From positions 91,803 to 155,802 of the forward strand of contig VIIQ02000212.1 in the NCBI GenBank assembly GCA_007449985.2: 64,000 nt of DNA, given 5' to 3'. Below are positions 7,382-62,280 of this stretch, one piece after another; the stretch's first letter is position 1, and each line of letters opens with the position of its first letter. Below the pieces are notes generated by a model. That model was not told the DNA's origin, did not search any database, and worked only from the letters and a program-made list of their open reading frames with translations. The position numbers and the translations under genes are program-made. The stretch is from Desmodesmus armatus. Lineage: Eukaryota; Chlorophyta; Chlorophyceae; Sphaeropleales; Scenedesmaceae.

Positions 7382-10300
7382 GCCCCTCAAGTGGCCGTAC
7401 TCCAACCCCCAGCACCAGCAGCAGCGCCAGCGCCGGCGGCGCGCGCGGCGACAGCAGCAGCCCCTCCCCTACAGGCTCTGTCAGCAATGCTATTGTCAGT
7501 TTCTTCGATGATTTGACCCGGGGGTCTGTCAGTATCGATGAAGGTGATGAACCCGCTGCTGCTGCTGCTGCTGCTGCTGCTGCTGCTGCTGCTGCTGCCA
7601 CCCCAGCAGCAATAGCAGCGGCAGATGCAGCAGCTGGGAAGGTTGCAGCAGGAAAGAATGGTGGTGCAGCAGGGGAGTGGGATGCAGCTGCTGTTGCTGT
7701 GGTGGCTGCGGCAGCAGCACTGGCATCAATGGAAGAAACCAGTGATCTGCCTCCTGCTGCTGCTGCTGCTGCTGCTGGTGCTGGTGCTGGTCGCAGTGAC
7801 GCCAGCAGCAGTGGCGGCAAGGTCGCTGCCAGTTCGAAGGGTATAACTGCCACCCCTGCTGCTGCTGCTGCTGCTGGTCGCAGTGACGCCAGCAGCAGTG
7901 GCAACAAGACCGCTGCCAGTTCCCAGGGTGTACCTGCTGCTGCTGCTGCTGCGAAACAGCCGGACACCACACCGGCTCCTGCTGCTGCAGGCACAGGCCG
8001 CACCAGCACCAGCAGTGTAAGCAAGCAGAACCCCCCAGCACAAGTCACCCTCGCAGCCGGCAGCAGTGGCAGCAATGCCGGCAGCAGTGGCGGCAGCAAT
8101 GGCGGCAGCAGTGGCGGCAGCAGTGGCGGCAGCAGTGGCAGCAGCCGCCAGGCTGTAGCAGAGGAGGCTGTGAGGGGTGCTGGTGGTGGTTTGCAGTCAG
8201 GGGCCCTGGGGCTGTCAACAGCAGCAACAGCAGTAGGGGAGGAGGGGGCTGGTGCGGCTGTTGGAGCAGTAGTGACGTGGCTGGTGCAGGGGTTGGTGGG
8301 TGTGGCGCTGCTGCAGGGGCTGAAGATGGCAGTGGAGGCAGCAGCGCAACAGGTCAGACTGGGGCCTGGGGGTAGGGGGTTGAAAGGTTTTGAAGTCTGG
8401 GGAGTGGGAGCAGTCGAGGGCAGGCAGTTAGGCAGGGACAGCTACTAGCAGATGGAGGGACGTGCGTGTCTAGCCACAGGAAGTGTGTGTGTGTGGTGCC
8501 ACCAGTGGTGGTGGGGGGGGGGGCTGCTGCAGTGGCAGTTGCAGTGAAGCTGGTGAGACTGGGGGCTTGGGGGTTCTGGGGCTTTTTGGTGGTGGTGGGG
8601 GGGGGGGTGTTGTGTTCCTGAAACGCTTCTAGCAGATGAAGCGATAGCGGTGAGGCAGGTGGGGGGGGGGGGGGGTGTACAGCAGTGTGTGGGGGTGAGG
8701 GGGCGGGGTTGGTGCTGCACCGGCGCATGGGTTGGTGGGTGTGGTGCTGCTGCAGGGGCTGAAGGCAGCAGTGGAGGCAGCGATGCAGCAGGTGAGACTG
8801 GGGGGCCTAGGGTTACGGAATCTGGGGCTTTTCGATGGTGCGGGGGGGGGGGGGGGGTTTGCACACATACTGGCAGATGAAGTGACAGCCGTGCGGCAGG
8901 ATGGGGACATTGTGCAGCAGTGAGCGTGGGTGTGGCTTCACTCAGTGCTGCTGCTACTGCTGCCGCTGCTGCTGCGGCACGTACCTTGATGAAAACTGCT
9001 GCTGCTGCAGGTTGGCATGACAGCCATCCCCCCAGCAGCGCTAAGCATGCTGGCAGTCTCAGCGCTGCTGGCAGCAGCAGGTCCTGCAACGGCAGACAGG
9101 CTCGTAGGTCTGTTGGATGCTGCTGTTGCACCCATCCCCTCCAACACCCCCCCCTCCCCAAAACTCCTGGACGCCGGTTCACTCAGTGCTGCTACTGCTG
9201 CCGTTGCTGCTGCGGCGGTATGTACCCCGCTCAAACCGCTGCCGCTGCTGCTGTTACTGCAGGTTGGCGTGACAGCCATTCCCCCAGCAGTGCTAAGCAT
9301 GCTGGCAGTCCTCCTGCTGCTAGCAGCAGTAGGTCCTGCAACGGCAGACAGGCTCGTAGGTCTGTTTGATGCTGCTGTTGCCCCCCTCCCCTCCCCTGCA
9401 CCCCCCCTCCCCAAAACTCCTGGACGCCGGTTCACTCAGTGCTGCTACTGCTGCCGTTGCTGCTGCGGCGGTATGTACCCCGCTCAAACCGCTGCTGCTG
9501 CTGCTGCTGCTGCAGGTGGGCGTGACAGCTGTTCCCCCGGCTGTGCTAAGCATGCTGGCAGTCCCAGCGCTGCTAGCAGCAGCAGGTCCTGCAACGGCAG
9601 ACAGGCTCGTGAATCTGTTTGATGCTACTGTTGCCCCTTGGACCACCGATCTGCTGGGGCTGTTTTTTCTCCCGGCTGTGGCGATACTGCCGGTGCTGCT
9701 GAGGGGTATGCAAGGTGGGTGTGCTGCTCGCGCTGTGCTGTGTTGTGCCGTGCAATGCTGTGCTGTGCGGTGCGGTGCGGTCTAAGCGCGCGCATCGTCA
9801 GCACATGCTCCTGTGATGTTAGATTGTTGCTGCTTGTCTTGTCCGCTTTCCTGCTGCGCCCTGCTGTGGTGTTGCTGCATGTGTCTTGTCTCTAAGCTGT
9901 GACCGCCTGCGATGTGCTGTGCTGGTGCTGTGCTGGCATCTCTTATCGTATGCTGTGCTGCGCTATGCAGGATCTGACTTGGCGGGACTGCTGAGCGTTG
10001 CTGCAGTCAGCACAGCCGCAACACTACTGCTCACTGCATCAGTCGCTGGAAGGATAATAAGGCAGGAAGCCCCTACATCAGCAGCACCAGCGCACCAACC
10101 GCGCGCAGCAGCAGCATCGCAACAGTCAGCAGCAACAGCAGCGGCAGAGGGTAGCGGGCGTGGCTACAGGCTTACGTCTGGCCCTGCTGCTGCTGTGCTG
10201 TTCTCGCTGTCATTTCTGGCAGCGGCTGGACCCCTGGCCCTCACTAGGTGAGGCAGGCACTATGTGACAGCAACCAACTTTGAATTTGAATTTGGAATCT

Positions 10301-62129: not shown

Positions 62130-62280
62130 AGGGAGGGGGGGGGGGGTGAGGGGGAGAAAAGAGGGTGTAGTGCGGGCTCAGATTGAGGGCAAGTTGTCGT
62201 GGCCTGTTGTCACACTGGCAGGGTCGATGCGGCTGCCTGGGGGCTGGGAGGGGTGAACCGCACACCACTGACCTGTGCAC
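62130..62280 (-). repeat. Acceptor-side echo of the hallmark 5'-nucleotidase exon
   Basis: CACAG|GTCAGTGGTGTGCGGTTCAC then CCCTCCCAGCCCCCAGGCAG (from about 62275 down) copies the start of exon 62017-61847 but lacks the bases coding TFDP, so its frame is broken. It continues through the GTGTGACAACAGGCCACGAC region to a CACTACACCCTC phrase. Confidence 0.8.

Follow-up and report, generated by a model that had tools for sequence, protein, structure and literature searches.

The window analysed here, a stretch of 64,000 nucleotides from the green alga Desmodesmus armatus, is part of contig C208 of an assembly of 115.8 Mb in 831 contigs, and contains five genes of host type: a PLGG1-type gene, two dirigent-like genes, a helicase and a 5'-nucleotidase. 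The last two labels, given by an initial annotation made from the letters alone, were borne out by Pfam matches of the window translations (DEAD, 3.8e-26; 5'-nucleotidase C, 5.1e-13), and the dirigent label drew a weak match at 0.0016, below the Pfam cut-off. The PLGG1 label was not supported; the 304-aa translated stretch gave no Pfam match at E 0.01, and all three matches to LrgB found in the assembly lie on contigs other than the window's. No Rfam match was obtained in the window. When joined at their exon-proximal edges, the exons of the 5'-nucleotidase gave an open frame of 157 aa and those of dirigent-like gene 1 an open frame of 235 aa; the helicase join gave no single frame open throughout, and its exon set is therefore incomplete or partly wrong.

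Repeats in the window were located by self-BLAST, which returned 34 direct and 1 inverted pairs no more than 2.5 kb apart; exon edges were then set by hand and scored for echoes, that is, partial copies of an exon edge in the adjoining noncoding DNA. At a threshold score of 34, 17 of the 54 edges of the five genes passed. Three passing edges (the 5' edge of the PLGG1-type exon at 7991, a 3' edge of dirigent-like gene 1 and the 3' edge of the helicase exon at 40153) were discarded as simple-sequence or lowest-score matches, leaving 13 splice edges (four in the PLGG1-type gene, six in the helicase and three in the 5'-nucleotidase) together with the nucleotidase's stop-codon edge. Each retained edge is echoed in one to four copies that hold 21-119 bp of exon, all on the strand of the gene. 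The direct repeats thus lie where the initial annotation had placed copies of a splice site plus adjoining exon; its tally of at least 15 affected edges was, at this threshold, somewhat high for splice edges, although it was right that many are echoed. Its statement that most copies carry one edge only also stood, each echo covering a single edge and part of the exon.

A contiguous tandem unit predicts that the sequence between two copies, the spacer, should match the flank past the far copy. This comparison was run unmasked and again with simple sequence masked; some window edges were 1-5 bases off in the unmasked run and were corrected for the masked one. At p<=0.05, 11 of the 14 window edges showed spacer homology unmasked and 6 of 14 masked. 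Simple-sequence tracts are common in the window spacers, several of the passes depend on them, and the unmasked result flattered the tandem reading.

In the PLGG1-type gene (+ strand), the donor edge of the exon at 7991..8352 is echoed at 8722-8797 (70 exon bp, 86% identity; spacer p 0.010 unmasked, 0.22 masked). The 5' edge of the exon at 9516..9714 is echoed twice upstream, at 9005-9129 and 9257-9372, in a 253-bp tandem unit, and the spacer homology of these acceptor echoes (9005..9372) is clear in both runs (p 0.003 and 0.002). Both edges of the exon at 11376..11625 are echoed, the acceptor at 11247-11273 (p 0.003 unmasked, 0.002 masked) and the donor at 11717-11763 (p 0.15 and 0.11). Further along the same strand, two tandem copies of about 91 bp, at 96% identity, lie wholly within an intron at 12611..12795 and provide an example away from any exon edge. 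An 87-bp (29-codon) tandem repeat at 7769-7952 falls within a long open frame at 7327-8448; the gene finder described below placed this repeat in an intron.

The helicase gene (- strand) contains arrays of echoes, among them those at 42696-43260 and 44530-45053. The donor of the exon at 44958..45051 recurs at 44742-44801 and 44531-44589, and weakly at 44315-44358, in 211-bp units (p 0.003 unmasked, 0.002 masked). The exon at 43216..43355 has one acceptor echo at 43456-43525 (p 0.037 unmasked, 0.99 masked) and four donor echoes, at 43084-43121, 42955-43005, 42829-42878 and 42711-42745, in 129-bp units (p 0.003 and 0.002). A single donor echo of the exon at 42178..42239 lies at 41918-41979 (p 0.050 and 0.027). 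Acceptor echoes were found for the exon at 41202..41354, at 41456-41527 and 41598-41653 (p 0.003 and 0.077), and for the exon at 40153..40454, at 40557-40594 and 40718-40752, the latter pair with no spacer homology in either run (p 0.71 and 0.73). Two dispersed repeats also occur here: an 81-bp element with a palindromic core at 44205-44285 (-), inside a helicase intron, which has at least 40 further sites in the assembly at 86-100% match, and a repeat of about 100 bp at 42425-42533 (-), which is 91-94% identical at at least 15 sites on other contigs and is also present in sample region L030.

In the 5'-nucleotidase (- strand), the exon at 61847..62017 has an acceptor echo at 62166-62276 (p 0.003 unmasked, 0.27 masked) and a donor echo at 61706-61777 (p 0.85 and 0.65), and the acceptor of the terminal exon at 60387..60512 is echoed at 60559-60609 and 60662-60694 (p 0.003 and 0.002). 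The other end of the terminal exon is the stop-codon end of the coding sequence, a coding edge with no splice site, and it is echoed as well, together with untranslated flank, downstream of the gene at 60183..60246 (-) with a unit of about 206-212 bp; self-BLAST and edge scoring point to weaker copies (-) near 59930-60010 and 59725-59805. The tail of the coding sequence recurs three times (p 0.001, 0.001 and 0.015). For this edge the fixed-window spacer test gave p 0.003 unmasked and 0.72 masked; when untranslated segments were picked by eye, with none masked, the real end and two echoes matched one another at p 0.0005 for each of the 3 pairs. A 29-bp minisatellite of about 31 copies is found upstream of the nucleotidase exons at 62512-63413.

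The two dirigent-like genes behaved differently from the claim that all host-type genes are affected; 0 of the 22 edges tested in them had a convincing echo, and that claim fails. What they contain are arrays that are mostly intron: about 71-bp tandem units at 15859..16046 (+), before the acceptor at 16047 of gene 1, and 78-bp tandem units at 19389..19600 (+), at the corresponding exon edge before the acceptor of 19601 of gene 2. Each unit of 71-78 bp holds only roughly 20 exon-like bases. Likeness among units is higher within either gene (0.87 and 0.77) than between the two genes (0.67-0.74), a pattern that suggests concerted evolution or separate expansion. Larger repeats occur as well. A 3705-bp unit with a transposase-like ORF occupies 19983-38626 in about five mismatch-free head-to-tail repeats, exact at offset 3705 over 19983 to 34921, and represents either a very recent amplification or an assembly artefact; a further array at 50329-52228, outside the five genes, repeats a unit of roughly 510 bp about 3.7 times at 94-98% identity. 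The initial annotation had also remarked that the transposon-type genes show no echoes, an absence that says little, as the rate of 7% in the sample described below would predict about 2 among their roughly 30 splice edges (17 predicted exons).

The pattern was then sought beyond the window in a sample chosen, non-randomly, through matches to four Pfam families (LrgB, DEAD, kinase and AAA), which yielded 88 loci merged into 72 regions of 250 kb in all. Gene models in the sample were made ab initio with a small gene finder trained on Pfam-anchored exons, which covered 64 of 78 anchored stretches. Local repeats were present in 27 of the 72 regions, with 115 direct and 0 inverted pairs. Echoes were found at 37 of 521 edges (18/257 acceptors, 19/258 donors, 0/4 starts and 0/2 stops); 35 of the 37 extend to the edge itself, and none lies on the reverse strand. 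Echoes are therefore real, are spread beyond the window and occur in many introns, on donor and acceptor sides alike, and the suggestion that the pattern is systematic was supported. The window, in which the echoes are equally real, is richer in them than the sample (14/54 edges, at a slightly looser score).

In order to compare exon edges with exon interiors, a comparison that the initial annotation had proposed, 40-bp windows from 269 exons in 67 regions were matched against noncoding DNA up to 1.2 kb away. The proportion of matching windows fell steadily with distance from the edge, from 52/838 (<=8 bp) and 49/1023 (9-24 bp) through 25/914 (25-40 bp), 12/1034 (41-64 bp) and 2/824 (65-96 bp) to 0/1433 (>96 bp), so that 101 of 1861 windows within 24 bp of an edge matched; the reverse-strand control gave 0 matches in 6066. 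This contrast was rejected as proof that splice junctions are targeted, because exon sequence can come to lie in an intron by tandem duplication only if the duplicated stretch includes the edge, and a contiguous tandem duplication yields an identical contrast. Local copies on the same strand that include the boundary, as seen in sample and window, are likewise what a boundary-spanning tandem duplication requires. The proposed anchoring on splice junctions thus held for 13 window edges but not for the echoed coding-sequence end or the intron-only duplication, and a process that targets such junctions was not established, part of the edges showing full-unit homology. Two observations leave room for it: spacer homology goes undetected in most sample echoes, and duplications confined to introns fall short of what uniform placement predicts. 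Repair of R-loop or transcription-linked breaks, offered as an example by the initial annotation, drew no support from any of these results. Duplicate pairs in the sample comprised 36 at edges, 10 in introns only and 13 outside the scored span, whereas uniform placement expects 59% edge and 41% intron-only, and by size the intron-only class falls below the frequency expected under boundary-spanning tandem duplication. By our own reading, seven of the 10 intron-only pairs are echo-to-echo, two touch low-scoring predicted exons and one is plainly intronic.

Spacer homology in the sample was detected at 14 of 37 edges at p<0.05 unmasked and at 11 of 37 masked, the masked run also having taken a wider target; 19 of 55 copies reached a spacer z >=3. 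Introns with an echo are longer than those without (median 486 vs 283 bp), which fits the initial suggestion of an intermediate in intron growth. When the repeat offset was subtracted from intron length, the medians were 295.5 bp for 14 introns whose echoes lack spacer homology, 308.5 bp for 10 that have it and 290 bp for 217 echo-free introns; the host intron is longer by about the whole unit, as a boundary-spanning tandem duplication requires, although length-biased insertion of an exon piece alone is also compatible with these lengths (P 0.22-0.25).

The dirigent paralogs provided a calibration of how fast an intron half would fade: introns show 15% substitutions where third positions differ by 17%, and indels are more frequent in introns (35 gap events per 902 aligned bases) than in exons (3 per 415). 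In simulations at these rates, the spacer homology of 97-100% of tandem units was still detectable up to a per-lineage divergence of 0.10, and that of 82% at 0.15. Decoys, as we call the echoed splice sites with their exon sequence, look young by this measure, and those without spacer homology differ from the exon at codon positions 1+2 about as often (58/923, 6.3%) as those with it (19/369, 5.1%). Where spacer homology is lacking, exon sequence shows an identity of about 0.9 on the donor side and 0.8 on the acceptor side, which has fallen to near background about 10 bp into the intron, beyond which the donor side retains a slight excess to about 40 bp and the acceptor side none. Plain neutral decay of tandem units fails to explain the low spacer homology, the edge excess and the exon-restricted likeness. 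Either the exon maintains the likeness of the exon part, or homology in introns is lost faster than the calibration indicates, or some copies never had an intron half.

We favour generic tandem duplication of 90-270 bp across coding boundaries, filtered by selection, and assign this reading a probability of roughly one half. Local tandem duplications of about this size would arise irrespective of splice sites, by slippage, template switching or unequal exchange; those within an exon would be purged unless in frame, whereas those that straddle a coding end (donor, acceptor or stop codon) would be tolerated, because use of the exon-proximal boundary leaves the message unchanged and the other copy turns noncoding. 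The intron would lengthen by the whole unit and acquire a decoy splice site, and arrays would enlarge through further duplication of the unit. The intron-derived half would then mutate in both partners and fade, and the exon-derived half has one partner that selection would hold constant, so that eventually only a splice site plus exon edge would be recognisable. What is observed is the anchoring at edges, the shared strand, the lengthening of introns by roughly one unit, homology over the full unit at some edges, tandem repeats of 129, 211 and 253 bp at window exon edges, and the stop-codon example. Copies within an array share the exon breakpoint in some cases (L018, the L065 donor and L049) and not in others (the L065 acceptor, L072 and L056). 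Fading, perhaps with some refreshing of the exon part, would account for the cases without spacer homology.

Such refreshing forms an explanation of its own, in which an ordinary tandem duplication is followed by exon-restricted homogenisation of the decoys through gene conversion, cDNA-templated conversion or slippage between neighbouring repeats; exon parts would then look younger than the duplication. We regard it as a tentative possibility, and one that is compatible with generic tandem duplication as an added step. In region L072 a decoy equals the exon over 56 bp, and a second decoy pairs with it at 83% of 93 columns with 29 of 30 matching in the exon part, so that the flanks are the diverged part; in region L057 an 83-bp match has 0 differences in 40 exon bases beside 8 in 43 intron bases. 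Exon-derived parts are more alike than flanks in 23 of 25 decoy-decoy pairs, with coding constraint evident in neither member, although detection favours exon parts that are gapless and alike; the spread of synonymous to nonsynonymous changes among decoys exceeds what chance would give (permutation p 0.0085, chi-square p 0.023). For conversion, however, patches of 35-60 bp are short, and introns may simply gather more indels, as in the paralog calibration. Edge-anchored copying, whereby a splice site would be copied along with about 15-115 bp of its exon and a few intron bases and set down roughly 30-200 bp away in the intron, seems to us rather doubtful. It would account for the deficit of intron-only duplications, for the abrupt loss of homology close to the splice site, for the 23-26 of 37 sample echoes that lack significant spacer homology though their decoys look young, and for the 8 of 14 window edges that fail the masked spacer test, but not for the clear full-unit homology at several edges, the stop-codon edge echoed with its untranslated flank, or the flanks that some decoys share with each other (regions L049, L056 and L072), and growth of the intron by nearly the whole offset fits it only if the exon piece was inserted with a length bias. 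Taken jointly, the view that exon ends are copied, or are kept alike afterwards, by a mechanism that detects the exon and ends close to the splice junction, such as spliced-cDNA conversion of decoys or edge-anchored template switching, with introns growing through exon-refreshed decoys, appears to us unlikely. A mobile or introner-like spacer element was rejected: when spacers were compared with all sample regions and the window, the matches listed, of 18-55 bp, were read as simple-sequence or paralog matches, and among them no shared element and no common sequence in introns of unrelated genes was seen.

Selection for the decoys themselves, as alternative splice sites or exon ends, is improbable. 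Splice motifs are often retained, and the synonymous share of codon changes (136/250, 0.544) lies above the 0.39-0.44 simulated under simple neutrality, though not significantly above 0.5 (p 0.18). Against this stand frameshifts and nonsynonymous changes at near-neutral proportions; in dirigent-like gene 2 the aligned CAG is mutated in both decoys, one of which retains an AG two bases further on, and the nucleotidase frame is open through the exon-proximal edges, the only joins examined. Across 55 copies with 8 gaps, decoys differ from the exon at 7.6, 6.2 and 17.2% of codon positions 1, 2 and 3, a pattern close to that of a neutral decoy whose neighbouring exon accumulates synonymous changes alone; the modest synonymous excess could reflect unequal mutability at third positions. 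To judge from these substitutions, the decoys make no apparent case for function. Whole exons with both splice sites and an intact frame, as tandem or mutually exclusive exon duplication would produce, were not found among the echoes, although single exceptions are possible, as two decoys of the PLGG1-type gene were called as short exons by the trained gene finder. An assembly artefact, in which divergent haplotype arms were placed end to end, is still harder to credit. Some echoes do differ from the exon almost solely at synonymous sites (8/0 and 9/1 synonymous to nonsynonymous in L072), but multi-copy arrays show graded identity, and no second, nearly identical copy of one L072 segment turned up when that segment was searched as DNA against the assembly; a diverged haplotype as template was rejected on the same search.

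Related events are known. In a potato RdRp gene a direct tandem duplication crossing an intron-exon boundary created a new intron (Ma, Lan and Niu 2016, PMC4974935); as in the alga, the duplication crosses a boundary and the splice signals are inherited from the parental boundary, but, in the portion of that report available to us, the potato case concerns one gene and a new intron, whereas the algal copy stays as a decoy in the old intron at about 7% of tested edges. The model of intron gain by tandem genomic duplication (Rogers 1989, Hellsten 2011, and Gao and Lynch 2009, as cited in PMC4974935 and PMC3443670) similarly invokes duplicated splice or proto-splice sites; as summarised there, an exonic AGGT is duplicated to give a new intron, while in the alga existing introns lengthen. 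The available excerpts accept tandem duplication as a route of intron gain (PMC3443670; PMC2891723 for Drosophila) and call internal gene duplication common. Among green algae, the introns of Chlamydomonas and Volvox are richest in tandem repeats, which are enriched toward intron-exon junctions as the echoes are near intron ends (G3 2013, PMC3887541), but the sections of that report available to us deal with motifs of kinds such as GT/AC, and with roles these may have in splicing, and do not describe exon-edge copies. Isolated related cases are thus already in print, as are tandem repeats biased toward junctions in green-algal introns; our search of open-licence papers turned up no report of exon edges being copied systematically, at several per cent of edges. 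In humans, alternatively spliced introns were reportedly traced to tandem arrays by Zhuo et al. in 2007, a work whose title points to tandem arrays as an origin of competing splice sites. Overall, the echoes would represent an event of a familiar type occurring with unusual frequency, with a large residue, namely the edge excess, the exon-restricted likeness and the missing spacer homology, that this event leaves unexplained.

If roughly one in fourteen exon edges has been partly copied, the introns of this alga may have been caught growing through boundary duplication; under generic tandem duplication across coding boundaries, echoes would lengthen introns and leave the protein unaltered. The excess over intron-only duplications poses a specific question. 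Gene prediction is affected in such genomes, as our own predictor called some of the decoys as exons, and the decoy splice sites constitute a natural test set for the preference of the spliceosome for the exon-proximal site.
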